Below are positions 5,815-27,018 of a DNA stretch of 43,387 bases, piece by piece. A program made the position numbers and the translations under genes. Source of the stretch: a virus. The notes below the pieces were generated by a model. The model saw only the letters and a program-made list of their open reading frames with translations. It made no database searches and had not been told where the DNA came from. Position 1 is the first letter of the stretch; the number at the start of each line of letters is the position of its first letter. The stretch is taken from IMG/VR virus record IMGVR_UViG_3300023116_000094, positions 1-43,387 of that record. One strand, 5' to 3'.

Positions 5815-7194
5815 CTAGAAGATTTTTATGTTCTTGAGTTTTTCGCCCGAAGACGATTTGTCAAAAACCGGTATATCATCATCAACAAGGTTCTGTTGTG
5901 TTTCATCTACATCATATAGTTTCATCTTACTTCGATCTACGCCAATCACAAATCGCTTATCGACGTTAGGATCATTGTAACGATTCTTTAACTGTTTCAC
6001 CATTATCTGTCCAAGACTATTTAGCTCATCGTTGGACACAAGGGCGAACATCAGGTCAGCCGTTGCAGGAAGACCGAAAGACTCAGATGTGTCTTCTAGT
6101 CCAGGATCAGAATTGCCATACCCCGACCGAGTCGTTTGTGTTGCTGACACAATAGGCACATCAAACTCTACAGCAAGCCCGCGTATTTCTTCTGCGATAG
6201 CCTTGACATAAGTATAAGAGTTGATTGCACCGCCCATGGCTTTCATTCTAGACGATGCACAGATGTTCAAGTAATCAATGAAGATTAACTCGGGAACAAA
6301 CTTTTTCTTCAGTTTGAGTTCCATCAGCAACGCCCGGAAGTGACCGCTATGAGCCTGTCCAGTCGGGTACTCCTTGATGATCAGCTTACCGTTTGTGCTA
6401 TTCGCAATTTGACGCACACGGTCAGTGAACATTGTCTGCGACATGTTCTCTAACTGATCGATTGGCACATTCAGCAGATTTGCGTCAATGCGTTCAGCAA
6501 TGCGCTCCTCTGCCATCTCCATCGTAATGTACAAGACATTACGACCCTGCGATAGGGCACTAGCCGCAACGTGACACATGAACAATGACTTACCAACACC
6601 CGTGCCTGCCAAGGCGATGTTTAGCGTCTTATTTGGCAGTCCACCCTTTGTGATTCGATTGAAGTAATCGAGATCGAAGGGGATGCGCTCTTCTTGCTCA
6701 TGATAAAAGGCGTATCGTTCATCTACGTTTTCAAGGTAGTCATGACCTACGTTCGTGTCGAACGATACGGCTAGTGCATTCTGTAGGATGTCAGGCAGAG
6801 CGTTCTTTGATAGCTTCTCATGCTTACCGTCGATGATTGTAATCGACTCCATGATAGCACGATAGACCGCACGATCTTGACACCACTTTTCTGTTGTATC
6901 TAATAGCCACGTATCATTCTCTTCTTTCACCTCAAAGATGTTAGGAAGAATGTCCATGGCATGAGTGTACATCTGGTCAGTCAATTTGTCAGACTGATCC
7001 AATTCAATCTTAAAAGATTCTAGCGTCGGCAACTTATTGTATTTGCCAACAAACTTCGTCACCTCAGTGAACAGATGTTGGTACACACCTTCGAAGTATT
7101 CTTTCTTAATGAAAGGAATGACCTTACGCATGTAAGGTTCATTTGTCAAAATGTTTCGAATGATTGTTTGTTCTAAATCAATCTTCACTGTCAT
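5815..7194 (-). CDS. 41: Replicative DNA helicase gp41 (DnaB-like, 459 aa)
   Basis: Hexameric 5'-3' helicase that unwinds DNA ahead of the phage polymerase and works with primase. It has a DnaB-like N-terminal helical domain (residues 1-150), Walker A A-G-T-G-V-G-K-S (196-203) and Walker B I-F-I-D-Y-L-N near residue 305. The length is close to T4 gp41 (475). The ATG at 7194 lies 17 bases inside the gene before it. It sits downstream of uvsX, the T4 order uvsX-40-41. Confidence 0.96.
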   Translation of the reverse strand: MTVKIDLEQTIIRNILTNEPYMRKVIPFIKKEYFEGVYQHLFTEVTKFVGKYNKLPTLESFKIELDQSDKLTDQMYTHAMDILPNIFEVKEENDTWLLDTTEKWCQDRAVYRAIMESITIIDGKHEKLSKNALPDILQNALAVSFDTNVGHDYLENVDERYAFYHEQEERIPFDLDYFNRITKGGLPNKTLNIALAGTGVGKSLFMCHVAASALSQGRNVLYITMEMAEERIAERIDANLLNVPIDQLENMSQTMFTDRVRQIANSTNGKLIIKEYPTGQAHSGHFRALLMELKLKKKFVPELIFIDYLNICASSRMKAMGGAINSYTYVKAIAEEIRGLAVEFDVPIVSATQTTRSGYGNSDPGLEDTSESFGLPATADLMFALVSNDELNSLGQIMVKQLKNRYNDPNVDKRFVIGVDRSKMKLYDVDETQQNLVDDDIPVFDKSSSGEKLKNIKIF

Positions 7195-7501
7195 CGTCGG
7201 GATTGCCTAATTGTAAACTACCGGTTTGCGCCGCTTCTTCAAGAACAGACGCAAGAACTTCTGCGGCTCGATCTTGAAGGGCTACGTTCGCTTCTGTCAA
7301 TTCAGTATCAGGTGTTGATACTATCATAAAATTAAAGTTTAAGCAATCATTTTCTCCGTCGAAAGCAATGTTTCCAAAACGCAATACAGTCTCAGTAAAC
7401 TCACCCTTGATGATACGAATATCCCAAGACTGATCGCGCTCATCGTCTGTAGCAGGAATCAACTGATAGTCAATTCCTTCTCGTGCTACTCCAATACCCA
7501 T
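7178..7501 (-). CDS. Hypothetical protein between uvsX and 41 (107 aa)
   Basis: It occupies the place of T4 gene 40, but I see no clear sequence likeness to gp40, so no symbol is given. The middle is beta-rich (V-L-R-F-G-N-I-A-F-D-G, N-F-N-F-M-I-V). A helix and an acidic tail (D-D-D-S-E-D) follow. The ATG at 7501 shares one base with the uvsX stop; the preceding GTG is a weaker alternative. Its tail overlaps the gene 41 start. Confidence 0.65.
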   Translation of the reverse strand: MGIGVAREGIDYQLIPATDDERDQSWDIRIIKGEFTETVLRFGNIAFDGENDCLNFNFMIVSTPDTELTEANVALQDRAAEVLASVLEEAAQTGSLQLGNPDDDSED

Positions 7502-8550
7502 CACTCAACTTCCATTTCTAGATCAAGTTCAATCGATGCACCAGCACCAATCTTGTATTGCTTTTCAATGAACGACTGGAAGTCTTCGTCTTCTAATAGT
7601 CCTTCCCAGAAAGAATGCGCGAGCGTGTCTTTCTCTCTGACCTTTCCGCCAACCAGTTGTCCAGTAGCTTTATCAACCAGTTGATACCAGCCGTTACTAG
7701 GCTTAATAACAAAACCACCAGCAAGAGCAACATCCAGAAGACCACTATAAGGCTCAATCCCACCTTCCCAAGAAACTCGGATAGGAATCTTTGACTTCTC
7801 TTTAACAAATCGAGACTTTTCGACGTTGATAATAAAGTCATAACCAGTTACCTCAGTGCCAGTTTTGTTCTGCCGACGACCGAGAATCCAGATGTTATCA
7901 GCAGAGTAGTAGATACCGGTACCACCGCCAACAATATCTTTCGGAAACAAACCAATCTCTTTGTACGTATGATTGATTGCAAGAAGAGGAATGTTCTTCA
8001 TCGTCAGATAAGGAGTTGTCATTCTGAACAAGCCCTTGAGTGCTTTCGCACGTGACATATCAGCCACAGACTTTTCGTTGATTGCATCCTCAAGTTCTTT
8101 CTTAGATGCTAGGTTACCAATAGAGTCAATCACCACAATAACTTTATCGGCTTTGTCCAGATTCTCAAGCTGGTTGATCAGATCAAACTTCAGTTCTTCG
8201 ACATTGGTGATAGGCGTGTGGAGCACACGATTCACATCAATACCAAACGTTTCAAAGTAAGACTGAGGCGAACCAAACTCAGAATCATAGAACAGCATTA
8301 CTGCATCTGGATCAGACTTCAAAAACTCAGCCGCCATCTTTAGTGCAAACGAAGTTTTAAAGTGCTTAGATGGACCAGCGAGAACAGTAAGTCCTGACGC
8401 CAGTCCACCCTTCAGACTACCAGACAGAGCGACATTCAACATAGGAACGTCGAGGGTTGTAATCTCACGCTCTTGAAAAAACTCAGACTCAGACAGCACA
8501 GCCGTGTGTGCGACTTTAGAGTTTTTCTTCAGCTTGTTCATTACTGACAT
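7501..8550 (-). CDS. uvsX: UvsX RecA-like recombinase (349 aa)
   Basis: Strand-exchange protein that coats single-stranded DNA for recombination-dependent replication and repair. It has Walker A G-P-S-K-H-F-K-T (residues 59-66), the T4 UvsX form of the motif. A Walker B I-V-V-I-D-S-I-G follows near residue 140, then the I-N-H-T-Y segment. The size agrees with T4 UvsX (391) less part of its C-terminus. The ATG at 8550 has AAGGA eight bases upstream. Mediator UvsY is encoded at 24540-24983. Confidence 0.95.
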   Translation of the reverse strand: MSVMNKLKKNSKVAHTAVLSESEFFQEREITTLDVPMLNVALSGSLKGGLASGLTVLAGPSKHFKTSFALKMAAEFLKSDPDAVMLFYDSEFGSPQSYFETFGIDVNRVLHTPITNVEELKFDLINQLENLDKADKVIVVIDSIGNLASKKELEDAINEKSVADMSRAKALKGLFRMTTPYLTMKNIPLLAINHTYKEIGLFPKDIVGGGTGIYYSADNIWILGRRQNKTGTEVTGYDFIINVEKSRFVKEKSKIPIRVSWEGGIEPYSGLLDVALAGGFVIKPSNGWYQLVDKATGQLVGGKVREKDTLAHSFWEGLLEDEDFQSFIEKQYKIGAGASIELDLEMEVE

Positions 8551-8553
8551 ATA

Positions 8554-9507
8554 TTAGTCCTTCAGATTTTTAAAGTTAATGCACTCATCAATTAGCGGTA
8601 GTTTGTCAGACAGACCCGCAAGTGCGCGTACATCGTGATTCAAGAATTCACCAGCATACCCACGGGCTTGCTTGTAACTAATCGAATCGTCAGTCTTCGC
8701 ACGAACGAACGTAGGAACCATGACACTCTTGTCAGTAATGTCAGGTGCATTCTCCATCAAACGTCGAACGATTGTTGGATTCGCATTCTTAACATCAAGA
8801 ATGGTATCATACAACTGATTAAAGAAAGTCTGCTTGACTGCTTTGAAGCCCGCAAGACCTAGTTTAGCATAAATTACTTCCCAAATGCTACCAACAGCAA
8901 CTTGTGCGGCTGAGAAATGGCTCGCGTGTTGCAGAAGTTGCATTAATGCTTGCCGAGGCTTTTCTTCGCCACCAACTATATGATAGTCAGAGACTAAAAT
9001 TTCACCCATGTTTGTTGCATCACTCATCTCAGGGAAGTAACAAACTTTTGCGCTAAAGACATCATAGCCCAGAGTCGCAATCAACCGCTGAGTTGTTTCG
9101 ATGTTTAGCGTTGATCGAATGCAGATGGCACACTCGGTTTGCTTAAACAATTTGTTTACAGCGTTTAGAAAATCCGCGTCATCGAACGTATCGTTTTTCA
9201 TCAAAGGAATTTCTTCACAGATGAATACGATAGTAGGTCGCGACTCAATCAGAGCATCAACGTCATTAAACGATTCTGCTCTTACAAACTCAGATGCTTT
9301 GGTATTGAAAGCAACAGCAGTTGCATCAGCAAGCATATTGCTACCAATAATGCCCGCTTTCATCGTCTGAAGACCAGCTTCCTCTTGACCAATAGGCGGT
9401 GATTGAGGATGCTCCCAGCCTTCTTCATCTACTCGTACAACAGTTCCATCGGCTGCCACTTGAGGTTCGCTCAGTTTTGGCGCGATTTCAGTTACATTAT
9501 CACTCAT
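8554..9507 (-). CDS. Catalytically degenerate UDP-glucose dehydrogenase-like protein (317 aa)
   Basis: A roughly 50-residue acidic leader precedes a Rossmann-like start (G-I-I-G-S-N, residues 52-57). From there the protein aligns with the dehydrogenase at 1439-2212: S-T-L-N for S-T-T-N, K215-L-G-L-A219 for K161-Y-F-L-N165, T-F-F-N-Q identical, and G-Y-A-G-E-F288-L-N-H-D for G-Y-G-G-H-C223-F-P-K-D. Catalytic Asn is Ala and catalytic Cys is Phe, so dehydrogenase chemistry looks lost. It lies between the primase-like gene and uvsX, which suggests a structural or regulatory role there. The ATG at 9507 has GGAG six bases upstream. Confidence 0.75.
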   Translation of the reverse strand: MSDNVTEIAPKLSEPQVAADGTVVRVDEEGWEHPQSPPIGQEEAGLQTMKAGIIGSNMLADATAVAFNTKASEFVRAESFNDVDALIESRPTIVFICEEIPLMKNDTFDDADFLNAVNKLFKQTECAICIRSTLNIETTQRLIATLGYDVFSAKVCYFPEMSDATNMGEILVSDYHIVGGEEKPRQALMQLLQHASHFSAAQVAVGSIWEVIYAKLGLAGFKAVKQTFFNQLYDTILDVKNANPTIVRRLMENAPDITDKSVMVPTFVRAKTDDSISYKQARGYAGEFLNHDVRALAGLSDKLPLIDECINFKNLKD

Positions 9508-9516
9508 TATTTGCTC

Positions 9517-10440
9517 CTAGTTGTTGCGATAGGCATATTCAACTGCTCTATCAGCTTCTTTCTCTAGTGGTCGATTAGTATACCACATTCCATTCTCATT
9601 GTCAAATTGTCTACAAAGTTCTGCGATTTGCTTTGCAGAAATAGGATAACCATTCTTGATGGCATTGCCTGCTGTAGCAACCATGATCTGATACATCTTG
9701 TGATACCATCCGGTACTCGTTATTGTTTGATACTGCATAGAAAGTTTCTTTGGCCAAAACGGGCAATCACGATAGCTGGACCAAGAAACGTTGGTGTTAT
9801 CTAGTGCTTGCTTACGATGCTCAAGCACTGCTTTTTGCAACTCGGGCGGCAGACGATCTAAAAAGTTTTTGCCTTCTTTCTCTTTGTATGGATGTTTAGC
9901 CTTTAAGTAGTCTGGATCAATAGGGTCGCCGTGATTAGAAAACATAAAATTATGAGCGTCGAAATACTGAGCAGGAACGTAGTACATACGACTAAGATCC
10001 TTTGTCTGAGCATCGCCGATCTCACCAAGTTCTGTGTTGAGGGCATGCCAGAAATGTCGGATCTCATCTCGCTCGACGTTTCGTGTAAGTTCAAATACAA
10101 GTCGGAATTTAGGTGTATCGACTGTACTACTTGCAGTAGAATAACACACAAAGTTCCAATGCCCATACCTACTATGAAGCTCATTTGTTAGTGGCTCCTC
10201 AAAAGTGACATCATCAACATCGACAGCCGCCCAGCGACCCCAGTACTCAACGTTGTCATTTGATCTTGTTGTACCTTCAGTATAAATTGCAGGACTAATC
10301 AGCGAAGCAGTTTTCTTCGACTCGGGTATGCTAGACAAACCAGACAGCAACTCAGTAAACTCATGCCAATTATTCATGGTCATTCGTTTATGAGTCTTAT
10401 TGTCATAACGATTTTTAAACAGCGTCAGTTCTAGTTTCAT
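9517..10440 (-). CDS. Primase-like protein of the archaeo-eukaryotic primase type (307 aa)
   Basis: Residues 71-77 read A-A-V-D-V-D-D, a hydrophobic strand ending in D-x-D like AEP motif I. Residues 100-118 (Y-S-T-A-S-S, then P-K-F-R-L-V-F-E-L) match the S-x-S...P-x-x-R pattern of RepB-like and prim-pol proteins. D143-A-Q-T-K-D-L-S-R with M-Y-Y-V-P fits the third acidic motif. The C-terminal 100 residues are helical. T4 uses the unrelated DnaG-like gp61; none is in this window. The ATG at 10440 lacks a ribosome-binding site and lies 6 bases from a consensus -10. The family call is by pattern only. Confidence 0.6.
   Translation of the reverse strand: MKLELTLFKNRYDNKTHKRMTMNNWHEFTELLSGLSSIPESKKTASLISPAIYTEGTTRSNDNVEYWGRWAAVDVDDVTFEEPLTNELHSRYGHWNFVCYSTASSTVDTPKFRLVFELTRNVERDEIRHFWHALNTELGEIGDAQTKDLSRMYYVPAQYFDAHNFMFSNHGDPIDPDYLKAKHPYKEKEGKNFLDRLPPELQKAVLEHRKQALDNTNVSWSSYRDCPFWPKKLSMQYQTITSTGWYHKMYQIMVATAGNAIKNGYPISAKQIAELCRQFDNENGMWYTNRPLEKEADRAVEYAYRNN
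9577..9605 (-). promoter_or_regulatory. Internal sigma70-like promoter, extended -10
   Basis: Read leftward: TTGACA (9600-9605), 17-base spacer, TATACT (9577-9582) with an upstream TGG making an extended -10. It lies inside the 3' end of the primase-like gene, about 70 bases before the degenerate dehydrogenase ATG, and could boost that gene, uvsX and 41. Being inside coding sequence, it may be chance. Confidence 0.5.
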
Positions 10441-10446
10441 TCAGAA

Positions 10447-10476
10447 ATTATAACAGATTAAGTTGTGGGCTGTCAA
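10447..10476 (-). promoter_or_regulatory. Consensus sigma70 promoter, leaderless, for the primase-like operon
   Basis: Read leftward: TTGACA (10471-10476), 18-base spacer, TATAAT (10447-10452) with TGT before it. Six bases separate the -10 from the ATG at 10440, so the transcript should begin at or next to the start codon. The TATAAT also contains the TAA stop of the methyltransferase gene. It would serve the primase-like gene, the degenerate dehydrogenase, uvsX and 41. Confidence 0.8.
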
Positions 10477-11053
10477 CCTTTACCAATGCCAATTGATTCA
10501 TCTTACGTCTACCCTTGAACGTTTGCTCGTAGTAGAACTTTTTTATCAACTTTAGTTCGTGATGGTCTGCGAATGCATCGCGAACAGGAACCAACTCAAA
10601 GTTATCGATCAACATAGCTTTAATGCCGAGATCAATGCACATAGTCATATCATGTGAAGCCGCAGGATAAGTGTGACCGCCATCGATTAGTGCGAAGTCG
10701 TAATCGTAGATAGAAATTTCGTCTATCATTTGATGTGCTTTGCCAGGAATCCATCGCCACTTATTTCGATACATCTTCGATAGTTTTATAGCGGCAAGCC
10801 ATCGTGCCGCAGGATTGATTCTATCGTCTACTTTGCCGTTTCGATCTTCGTAAGGCGAGCAAGAAATCATCTTTTCAAGGTCTTTGTATATCTCAAGTTG
10901 ATATGTGGTCGAATGACCAAGATGAAAACCGATCTCTAAAACTCGCTTCGGCTTGAAGAGTTTTTGTGCCCACTCAAACGCTCTAAACACATCATCAGTC
11001 GGTGGCATGTAACCCCATCCTATATCAGGAAAAGATAAGTGTTCTAGATTCAT
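10448..11053 (-). CDS. Class I SAM-dependent methyltransferase-like protein (201 aa)
   Basis: Residues 38-49 read [12 protein letters not shown], methyltransferase motif I. A later [11 protein letters not shown] segment is typical of the Methyltransf_24 group (small-molecule or sugar methylation). The substrate is unknown. The ATG at 11053 overlaps the TGA of gene 43 (ATGA), so it is translationally coupled to DNA polymerase. Its stop codon forms part of the next promoter's -10 box. Confidence 0.8.
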
Positions 11054-13485
11054 CCAAAGAAGTCCTCAAGCGTTGCCCTTGGTTCTGCTGACCAGCCGAC
11101 TGCGGCGAGAATTGGCTCAAGCGGATCAAGGAATGTTTTAACGAACATCATATCATAATCTATTGACACGTGCAAGCCAAGTTCTTTGGGCAACTGCATT
11201 GGAAAAGATATTACGTTCTCTTTAATCTTGTTCGGCTGGCGGAGGTACAGAAACTTAATTTTCTCACCGTCTTGAATCAACTCGTATTTGTCTTGTAAGC
11301 CAGCTTGCTTAACATAATGATTATATAGCAGAGAGCCACGAACATGAATCGGTGTGCCCTTGCCGTAAATAGTCTGACGATCTTTCCACTTTGTCACTTC
11401 AGAGACGCCACGCGGAAACGCAATTACTTCGGGCTCTAGGTTTTTAAACTCAGCCTTGAAGTTGGCAATGAATCGTTGCGTGTCAGACTCAGTGCCCTCG
11501 ATGATTACTTTGAACGTCTCTTTCATTTTGTCACGTACGACCTGCGGCGTACTAGACTTGATCGCTTCGATACCCATCATCTTGAGTTTCGGCTGAGCGT
11601 ACCGCACACCCTCGTTGTCATGGACATTTAGAATGTATCGCTTCTTAGCCATCCAGATGCCGCGATCAGCAATCGCTTCACGCTTCATCACCATACGATT
11701 TTCGTACGCACTAGTCTCGTCCGCCAGCTTTGCATAGGCTTCTGCGATTTTAGTTTCAAAATGTTCTGCGACTTTACTACAGAAGTTGACGGGATTGACA
11801 GGCTTGTGCAACTCGACCAGCGGTGCGAAGTTAATGTACACAGAGTCGGTGTCGATTGCAATCACGTAGTCGTCTTTGGTACCAAGAATCTCTTGCATCT
11901 CATCGTTCACTGCTTTCTCGGCACACTTGATTGCTCGCTGACCATTTGTGGTCACACCCTCAGCAATCTTCTGATCGAAGTACCGAAAGTATTTGTTGGC
12001 GAGTGCACCATAGAGAGAGTTCATCAGAATCTTGATCGCCATCTGCTGATTGTCCATCGTAGCGATTTCGTTCTCAAGTTTCTTGGTAGGCGCTTCTTCG
12101 TATTGCTGTTTGGCTTTGAGCATGTTGCCCTTGATGGTCACACGATCATCATAGAACTTACGAATCACGTTAGGGATGATGCCCTCAAAGTCTTTTCGGA
12201 ACATCGCACCATTGGCACACTTCGTGGTCTCTACGTTTTCGTCGTAGCACATTGTCTCGGGCGACATGTTGTACTGCACGATGATGTTCGGATACAGAGA
12301 GTTAAGGTCGAACGACACAACCCAATCGTGCGCACCGACCATGGGATCTTTTACATAGCCGCCGACGATCTTGCCAGCGTCATGGTCAATGTCAGGCTTG
12401 CCAGGAATCACCACGTTCTTTTGCCGCAGTTGATTATAGATGATTGAATCCCAGATCGCAGTGGTGCCAAACGTGTCTTGGTAGTTTGTCTTTGCTTGGT
12501 ATGCCATAGTCATAGCCAGCGAGATCAGACCCATCTTCTCTTCGAAACGATCAACCAGTTCAACGTCTTTGATGTTGTAGTCAATGAACTTTTGGTAGTC
12601 ATGCTTGTACAGACTGTGAAGCGAACCGTATTCTTCATACGACAGTTTGCGCTCGCCAAGTATCACGTGTGCGATATGATCAAGCTTGTATGATTCTTGC
12701 TCACCCCAGGTCTGCTTGCCAAACTTCTTGAACAGATCAAGGTAGTCCATCTGAGAGATGCCCTCGATCTCATATGCAATCTCAACCGTGTTCATCATGC
12801 GAATCTCACGCTCACGCACGAGACCCCACGGCGAGAACTTCTTTACAGCCTCGGCATGGAGAACTTGTTGAGTACGGCGCACCAGATATGGAATGTCAAA
12901 GAGTTTGGAGTTCCAGCCAGTCAGTACATCTGGGCAGTTGCCTTGCCACCAACCAAGAAACGCAGTGAGTAGATCATATTCATTTTCACAACGAAAGTAG
13001 GTGATGTCATGATCGTTCAGATCCGTATCGTAATTGTCCATACCCCACACATAGTAAGTCTTTGATCGATTAGACTTGGCGGCGATAGAGATAATAGGAT
13101 GTGCGGCTTCTCTCGGATGAGGAAAGCCTTGATCAGATGCGACCTCGATGTCGATAGTCATTACGTTGATCAGGTCACGATCAAACTTGATATCGTTAGG
13201 AAAAGTGTCGCCGATGAACTGAGTGACATAATTCGTCTGACCATGTACGGAGAAGTTAGGAACGTTCTCGTACTGCTTCATAAAGTCAGAAGCTTCACGC
13301 ATGTCACCGAACTGCATAGGCTCGACAGACTTACCGTAGAGCGTCTTGTACTTGCCAGTTGCACGATTGCTTTCAACGAACAGGGTAGGAGTGTACGGAA
13401 TTCTACGCTCGACGCGAGATCCACTTTCGTAACCACGATAGAGTATTTTGTTGCCCGCGCGGACAACATTCGTATAAAATTTCAT
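11050..13485 (-). CDS. 43: DNA polymerase gp43, family B (811 aa)
   Basis: Replicative polymerase with proofreading. Exonuclease motifs: I D-I-E (112-114), [10 protein letters not shown] (190-197), [11 protein letters not shown] (303-310). Polymerase motifs: A D393-L-N-S-L-Y-P, B K485 to N-S-L-Y-G (489-493), C D545-T-D547-S. All catalytic acids are present. It is shorter than T4 gp43 (898) but complete. The ATG at 13485 has no ribosome-binding site and sits 6 bases from a consensus -10 box. RegA, which represses translation of several early mRNAs in T4, is encoded at 15932-16306. Confidence 0.98.
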
Positions 13486-25608: not shown

Positions 25609-27018
25609 ATGATTAAGTACATGCCCTTTGTATTCGCTCTGCTTGTAGGTTGTTCAGGCGGTAACGAATCTTCTGCTATTATAGAGCAACCACCAGTTGT
25701 TAATCATCCCGCACAAGGCACTGTTTTAGATGAGTACTGTGAAGATCCGCACACATTAGTAATTGTCACAGCAGATGGTGCTGGCGGCGAGATCGTAGAA
25801 AAAACAGAAAATTCAGAAGAATGTGGCTATGAACCTCCACCCGCATTTGGCACACCTTTATCAGAACCATACTGTGTAGAAGAGCCTAGTCCTGAGAATA
25901 GATTTATTCAGCTTCTTACACTTGTGCAAGACGTAGCTGATGGAAACGGTGGCAAACAGGTTGAGACTATACAAGAAGATGCTGAAGAATGTGGTTTTAT
26001 TCCTCAGATGGATCCGCCAGCATCTTGCCCTTCTGATCCAACTGACACTAAACACCCTTGGTATGACTACATGAATTGTGATGGTGTGCTTCAGCGAACA
26101 GGCGTTGACTTTCCATATGAAGTGGATAATGAGCAACTAGCAGTAATCGATTTACTCGCAGTTGTTGATAGCAAACTCACCGAAGAAGACATGGAAGGCT
26201 TGACACATGAAGAATACATTCGCCGTGAATTGGATTTTGCCAACAAAGTCTTTGCTGATTCTGGTGTTTATATTGTTCTTCGACTTGTCGATTTAAAAAT
26301 GGTAGAAGTTGGTGCAGGTGATCTAAGGCGGCAGTACACAGCATTCTTTGGTGATCGTTACGAATTTAGTGATGTCGAAAAGTGGCAACGAAACGCAGAG
26401 GCTGACATTGCATTTCTGTTTAAAAAGAAAGAGGAAGATCCTATTGCGTGTGGTGTTGCTCAAGTAGATGGAACACGAGGAGTCCAAAAAACACGAGGAA
26501 TCACACAATGTTTTCAGAACACAGTCTTTCAGGATTATGCCGCAACACGATACTATGAGCGAGCGCATGAAACATTCGTGCACGAAGTCGGTCACATTTT
26601 AGGACTCGATCATCACTTTGGTGATCATCAAGGCACAGTAAACATTTTTGAATATTCGTTTGGCTATCTGCTACCAGAATATCGAGCACCAGTAGAGAAA
26701 GAAGATAATTCGATCTGGGCTGGCTACGGCACCGTTATGTCATACTCTGATCTGCCTACTGGTAGATTTTCAGACTATGATGCATATTTTGAAATACCTG
26801 AAAACAGTAAAACAGTAAGACTTGGCACAAAAGGTGGCTGTTTCTGCCTACAGCCTATTGAAACACAACCACCAGAAACACAGGCTGTGAAACATCTAAA
26901 CAGAGTCAGATATAGAATGAGTCAACTGGCTGAAGACGATTACATCGTCGCTTTTTCGCCAGCACCTAGTCCTGACCCTCTTGTGTATTACTTTGAAAAT
27001 CCAGTTTGCTACTATTAA
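25609..27018 (+). CDS. Metzincin-type metalloprotease lipoprotein (469 aa), plus strand
   Basis: The signal ends with lipobox L-V-G-C15, so the protein is a lipoprotein after export. Residues 37-74 and 81-130 are two Cys repeats (G-T-x-L...C, A-D-G-x-G-G, E-E-C-G-Y/F), like those I recall in marine phage adhesins. The catalytic zinc site H325-E-V-G-H-I-L-G-L-D-H335-H and a downstream Met-turn G-T-V-M377-S-Y-S define a metzincin. The conserved Glu is present, so it should be active. It lies between tail and head genes, on the opposite strand, with its own late promoter and terminator. Likely late-expressed cell-surface or virion enzyme. Confidence 0.85.
   Translation: MIKYMPFVFALLVGCSGGNESSAIIEQPPVVNHPAQGTVLDEYCEDPHTLVIVTADGAGGEIVEKTENSEECGYEPPPAFGTPLSEPYCVEEPSPENRFIQLLTLVQDVADGNGGKQVETIQEDAEECGFIPQMDPPASCPSDPTDTKHPWYDYMNCDGVLQRTGVDFPYEVDNEQLAVIDLLAVVDSKLTEEDMEGLTHEEYIRRELDFANKVFADSGVYIVLRLVDLKMVEVGAGDLRRQYTAFFGDRYEFSDVEKWQRNAEADIAFLFKKKEEDPIACGVAQVDGTRGVQKTRGITQCFQNTVFQDYAATRYYERAHETFVHEVGHILGLDHHFGDHQGTVNIFEYSFGYLLPEYRAPVEKEDNSIWAGYGTVMSYSDLPTGRFSDYDAYFEIPENSKTVRLGTKGGCFCLQPIETQPPETQAVKHLNRVRYRMSQLAEDDYIVAFSPAPSPDPLVYYFENPVCYY

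Follow-up and report, generated by a model that had tools for sequence, protein, structure and literature searches.

The standard model for phage replication forks is the replisome of bacteriophage T4, whose helicase-primase pair, gp41 and gp61, has been solved to residue level. Among phages generally, DnaG-like primases accompany DnaB-type helicases, and primases of the archaeo-eukaryotic (AEP) superfamily mostly accompany helicases of the SF3 type, so that finding an AEP next to a DnaB-type helicase would be unusual. AEPs in phages are themselves well known, as PMC5862659 and PMC7824862 make clear, and databases already call the proteins considered here 'DNA primase'; in the titles, abstracts and selected passages of the literature searched, we found no report of T4-type phages in which an AEP substitutes for gp61.

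Among named phages the nearest is C48C1 (OQ984149), a circular, complete genome of 156,191 bases belonging to the Kyanoviridae. Its 'DNA primase' (WJE87912.1) is 56% identical over the whole length to the primase of the window, by which we mean the entire stretch of DNA analysed, a viral fragment of 43,387 bases. The C48C1 annotation reads 'DNA primase' only, leaving both its AEP nature and the missing gp61 unstated. Gene order is the same in both: gp43-MTase-primase-(epimerase)-UGD-uvsX-ORF-gp41. Our explanation, which we hold to be highly probable, is that a stand-alone AEP-type primase took the place of the DnaG-like gp61 in these phages and primes for the gp41/gp43 replisome.

The primase locus and its distribution

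The open reading frame begins with ATG, ends with TAG and encodes 307 amino acids on the reverse strand. The relevant features of the window are as follows.

11050-13485, minus strand: gp43 family-B DNA polymerase, upstream of the primase; 57% identical to the C48C1 DNA polymerase and about 49% to cyanophage gp43
10448-11053, minus strand: methyltransferase-like gene between gp43 and the primase; PF13578 at 8e-9
9517-10440, minus strand: AEP-type DNA primase gene, the probable gp61 substitute; phrog_9765 at 1e-46, 56% identity to the C48C1 'DNA primase', AEP fold
9877-10440, minus strand: catalytic AEP domain, residues 1-188; aligned by VIA-align to 6zp9, the S-2L PrimPol AEP domain
10213-10221, minus strand: motif I, D74-V-D76, predicted to bind metal; both Asp are invariant in 51/51, and present in C48C1 and two Vibrio phages
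10102-10140, minus strand: motif II region, residues 101-113 (STASS...PKFR); the usual His is Ala103, K111 and R113 invariant
9988-9999, minus strand: motif III, D148-L-S-R151; D148 and R151 invariant in 51/51, aligning with FDVHR of Emery gp96
9520-9873, minus strand: C-terminal all-helical domain, residues 190-307, possibly PriCT-like; AlphaFold pLDDT 92, with a suggestive match to RepB'
8554-9507, minus strand: UDP-glucose-dehydrogenase-like protein between the primase and uvsX; phrog_9148 at 3e-13
7501-8550, minus strand: uvsX recombinase; phrog_97 at 1e-87, T4_UVSX_C
7178-7504, minus strand: 108-aa open reading frame between uvsX and gp41, conserved in the operon
5815-7194, minus strand: gp41 DnaB-type replicative helicase; phrog_19 at 2e-127

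The first-pass annotation had placed the gene in a T4-type replication cluster, and its neighbours agree: gp43 lies upstream, and the UDP-glucose-dehydrogenase-like gene, uvsX, the 108-aa frame and gp41 follow downstream. This linkage is general among relatives, with gp43 upstream of the AEP at 77/77 loci where the sequence allowed, and uvsX and gp41 downstream at 69/76 and 64/76 respectively. The methyltransferase-like gene precedes the primase at 24 of 77 loci and so belongs to only part of the clade. The UDP-glucose-dehydrogenase-like protein, in which no clear GxGxxG dinucleotide-binding start is visible by eye, may be a repurposed enzyme inside the replication operon. The window holds a second, shorter UGD at 1439-2212, and also, at 25609-27018 on the plus strand, with its structural-gene neighbours encoded on the other strand, a 469-aa lipoprotein-like, reprolysin-type metallopeptidase (PF13582, 1e-9).

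A tree of 70 gp43 sequences unites the 59 AEP carriers, and none of the 11 gp61 carriers, in one group with support of 100. The sample behind this tree had been selected by the presence of the AEP, and a second was therefore collected by gp43 alone. In this second sample the AEP was found at all 26 loci with a gp43 at least 55% identical to that of the window and at least 800 bases of downstream sequence, and at none of the 46 loci with a gp43 at most 52% identical, 33 of which have sequence reaching uvsX. Two of the 11 distant contigs tested (127 kb and 18.8 kb) carry gp61, most of the others being short. Distances between AEP sequences correlate with those between the accompanying gp43 sequences (r 0.78), as expected if the two genes have long been inherited together. 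Apart from a distant copy in a few Vibrio phages, which may represent a second swap or one that took place earlier, the AEP is confined to a single gp43 clade. The best reading of this distribution is one non-homologous replacement of gp61 in one marine T4-type lineage.

One contig of the distant group, G046 (IMGVR_UViG_3300042449_000993, 172,991 bp; loci L259 and L281-L289), has gp43, gp41 and gp59 but neither gp61 nor the AEP, and no primase was found among the genes near its gp43. It may represent a third primase solution, or a piece of the genome may be missing; since it has neither primase, T4-type priming may be possible in another way.

Several AEPs are repair or restart enzymes and not replicative primases. 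Human PrimPol and LigD are cited as examples in PMC5862659. The AEP described here could likewise be an auxiliary primase-polymerase, serving lesion repriming or recombination-dependent restart, with host DnaG or a transcript providing the lagging-strand primers and gp61 lost for some other reason. The position of the gene near uvsX would suit such a role, much T4 replication being started by recombination, and G046 is a T4-type phage that lacks both known primases. However, an AEP carried by 26/26 members of the clade for which the sequence was available, with gp61 absent exactly there, has the pattern of a replacement and not of an optional extra, and we consider an auxiliary role improbable beside replacement of gp61.

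Motifs, fold and family of the primase

The first-pass annotation had identified the protein as an AEP from three short motifs, and these are present as described: D74-V-D76-D77; S101-T-A-S-S105 followed by P110-K-F-R113; and D143-A-Q-T-K-D148-L-S-R151. Among 51 aligned relatives, D74, D76, K111, R113, D143, D148 and R151 are invariant and position 77 varies between D, E and S. C48C1 has all seven of these residues unchanged, as do two Vibrio phages whose proteins share about 30% identity, and the catalytic residues are again invariant in a second set of 56 relatives. Being invariant across the 51 and shared with such distant phages, the motif residues are not there by chance. The AEP motif I pattern hhhDhD/E is matched by A71-A72-V73-D74-V75-D76, and the acidic residue of motif III (hD/E) by D148, with a Lys and not a hydrophobic residue before it. 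The small-x-His of motif II is absent, position 103 being Ala in all 51 marine members and Pro in the Vibrio phages. According to Kazlauskas et al. 2018 (PMC5862659), this His is family-specific and is replaced in several accepted AEP families; Ala103 therefore bars the families with a canonical motif II, and not the AEP superfamily as a whole.

An AlphaFold model of the primase, built on the 51 relatives, has a mean pLDDT of 88.8, and its best match in the PDB is 6zp9, the AEP domain of S-2L PrimPol (Foldseek 5e-5, probability 1.00; VIA-align Z 9.4, rmsd 3.5 A over 147 residues). The next VIA-align rows are mostly AEPs, namely RepB', a CRISPR-associated Prim-Pol, mycobacterial Prim-PolC and the human and yeast primase subunits; an exception among the leading rows is H. 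pylori HP0184, which has no AEP annotation. In a library of viral models, many of the matches are primase-helicases of the VirE or NrS-1 type. Sequence profiles, a check suggested by the first-pass annotation, point in the same direction: a PHROGs search gave phrog_9765 'DNA primase' (1e-46), followed by phage helicases or helicase-primases (6e-10 and 3e-8), and no match to an unrelated family. By hhalign, the AEP part of Brevibacillus phage Emery gp96 matches at E 2e-11 (probability 97) with all three motifs in register, and phage primase-helicases of this VapE/VirE type are the closest sequence kin outside the T4-type phages. Pfam and NCBIfam searches returned no family for the primase; BT4734-like_N, itself an AEP family, was weakly touched by one of the 51 members (0.015). 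A profile search against PDB chains gave U1A as sole match, at 0.51, which we attribute to chance. Against S-2L PrimPol, hhalign by sequence gave nothing, and so that link is structural. The earlier label 'prim-pol/RepB' can accordingly be kept in part: PrimPol is the best fold match, and RepB a structural relative only. The protein has the RRM-like catalytic fold of the AEP superfamily and is a divergent member of it that falls in no named family.

No match to a VapE/SF3-type helicase domain was found, and the primase ends at 307 amino acids after its helical domain. The top VIA row for a model of these C-terminal 118 residues is the helical domain of RepB' (3h20, 217-300; Z 6.5, 75 residues). 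ColE2 Rep and pRN1 rank lower, and Foldseek returned no significant match. On the model, this separate domain may reasonably be given the tentative label 'PriCT-like'.

The lost motif II His, changed to Ala in 51/51 marine members and to Pro in the Vibrio phages, could mean that nucleotide binding has gone too, leaving a structural or DNA-binding relative that has the AEP fold and is non-catalytic. We think this very unlikely, since all three catalytic Asp together with K111 (or Arg), R113 and R151 are kept across more than 50% sequence divergence, and since other accepted AEP families also do without this His (PMC5862659).

The search for gp61 and the rest of the primosome

The first-pass annotation had proposed a non-homologous replacement provided that gp61 was absent elsewhere in the genome. 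The window is a fragment, and absence was therefore assessed in relatives, comprising one complete near relative (C48C1) and incomplete contigs. Two profiles were used. The first, phrog_47, contains T4 gp61 and is able to pick up remote gp61 proteins as well as cellular DnaG; it matches T4 and syn9, and was silent in C48C1, in Vibrio phages henriette 12B8 and V6Aob, and in 40 AEP-bearing marine IMG/VR contigs, including those of 144, 135 and 116 kb. The second was a custom HMM built from the gp61 of 11 phages with leave-one-out controls, which recovered T4 gp61 at 5e-73 when this was left out; its best E in C48C1 was 0.2 (154,900 of 156,191 bases searched), and it found nothing in the 144-kb AEP contig. 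The custom HMM would miss the gp61 of RM378 (leave-one-out E 0.098), which phrog_47 finds at 8e-15. PF13155 (Toprim_2) was discarded as a test for gp61, as it misses T4 itself.

The converse also holds. T4, syn9, P-SSM2, AG-345-L05, HTVC008M, RM378 and Atu_ph07 have gp61 or a distant gp61-like match, and the AEP described here is absent from all of them. Where metagenome bins contain both kinds of primase, gp61 and the AEP are on separate contigs. Non-homologous replacement is thus supported in the relatives: gp61 is absent from the complete C48C1 and from every AEP contig tested, and the gp61-bearing T4-type phages have no AEP. That a divergent gp61 was missed elsewhere in these genomes, making the AEP an addition, is very unlikely, the least likely of the alternatives: C48C1 is the only genome both complete and close, most contigs being fragments, but two independent profiles are silent in it, phrog_47 reaches distant gp61 and cellular DnaG, and the large contigs of 144, 135 and 116 kb are silent too.

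Two further cases were noted in these searches. One bin, G044 (Rhodobacteraceae bacterium Water_Bin34), contains five AEP-bearing and several gp61-bearing phage contigs, always separate. Cyanophage S-TIM5 (NC_019516, 145715-146002), outside the Kyanoviridae, has a weak AEP relative (8e-6) and no gp61 match.

The helicase gp41 is present in every record tested, bar the 116-kb fragment, which ends just past the AEP. The helicase loader gp59 was detected neither in C48C1 nor in 12 marine AEP contigs; in C48C1 the stretch from gp33 to gp32, where the gene normally lies, does not contain it (OQ984149, 111879-113137). We had considered that AEP carriers always lack gp59, which is ruled out by two AEP contigs carrying both (G042:C123 and G043:C28); since these and the Vibrio phages keep gp59, the gene seems to have been lost later and in only some of the carriers. 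A small RNase H profile, a weak test, found nothing in C48C1.

In T4, as PMC10359460 describes, gp61 binds gp41 through an N-terminal hairpin of the helicase, residues 104-118. Relaxation of this docking surface after the loss of gp61 was not seen: the hairpin is more conserved, and its mean entropy is lower in the AEP clade (0.51) than in the comparison group (0.97), itself a broader group; for the gp41 C-terminal domain the gap is smaller (0.54 vs 0.69). This is suggestive of a surface still in use, and would fit docking of the new primase.

Proposed mechanism and comparison with known systems

Under replacement of gp61, primase activity and gp41 binding are predicted for the AEP, and a mechanism can be proposed from its residues and model. 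Asp74, Asp76 and Asp148 would hold two metal ions for catalysis, and Lys111, Arg113 and Arg151 would take over nucleotide triphosphate binding from the absent motif II His, while the C-terminal helical, putatively PriCT-like domain may hold the template and the first nucleotide. The enzyme would make short primers on the strand as it emerges from the gp41 hexamer, and gp43 would then take these over. Judging from the conservation of the gp41 N-terminal hairpin, the site of gp61 binding in T4, the AEP probably docks there. Counting against our explanation are the absence of the motif II His, the Lys before the motif III Asp and the existence of G046 with neither primase. A more speculative extension, which we regard as rather unlikely, is that the whole T4 primosome has been rebuilt, with the AEP docked on the hairpin once used by gp61, gp59 lost later in a subclade, and primers perhaps of DNA and not RNA, the last because no RNase H was detected in C48C1.

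If replacement of gp61 is accepted, gp41, gp43, the genes for clamp and loader, and uvsX have been retained alongside an unrelated primase in a large marine sister lineage, which makes that lineage a natural experiment on the demands that a DnaB-type helicase places on its primase. A core part of a textbook replisome would then be replaceable by a non-homologous one, and the annotation 'DNA primase' can hide such a replacement in an abundant virus group.

The known systems resemble this one in different respects. Vibrio phages henriette 12B8 and V6Aob have a primase about 30% identical with the same catalytic residues, and likewise have gp41 and no gp61; their AEP sits after uvsY beside a Dda-like helicase and not beside gp43, and gp59 is retained. 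In henriette 12B8 (L003, 2438-5718), which has a T4-type set using an AEP, the annotation splits the DNA polymerase into two genes separated by a third. The VapE/VirE-type AEP-helicases, such as Emery gp96, possess a homologous AEP domain, but gp96 has its own VapE-type helicase domain and keeps the motif II His (YSTHSH...KYR), whereas the window primase stands alone beside a DnaB-type gp41. The PrimPol of cyanophage S-2L offers the closest solved AEP fold with no detectable sequence similarity, and S-2L is not a T4-type phage. T4 gp61, finally, has the same role as that predicted here, primase for the gp41 helicase, but is built from a zinc ribbon and TOPRIM in an unrelated fold; it shows no similarity to the window primase (hhalign probability 0.2), for which profile searches gave no TOPRIM or zinc-ribbon match.
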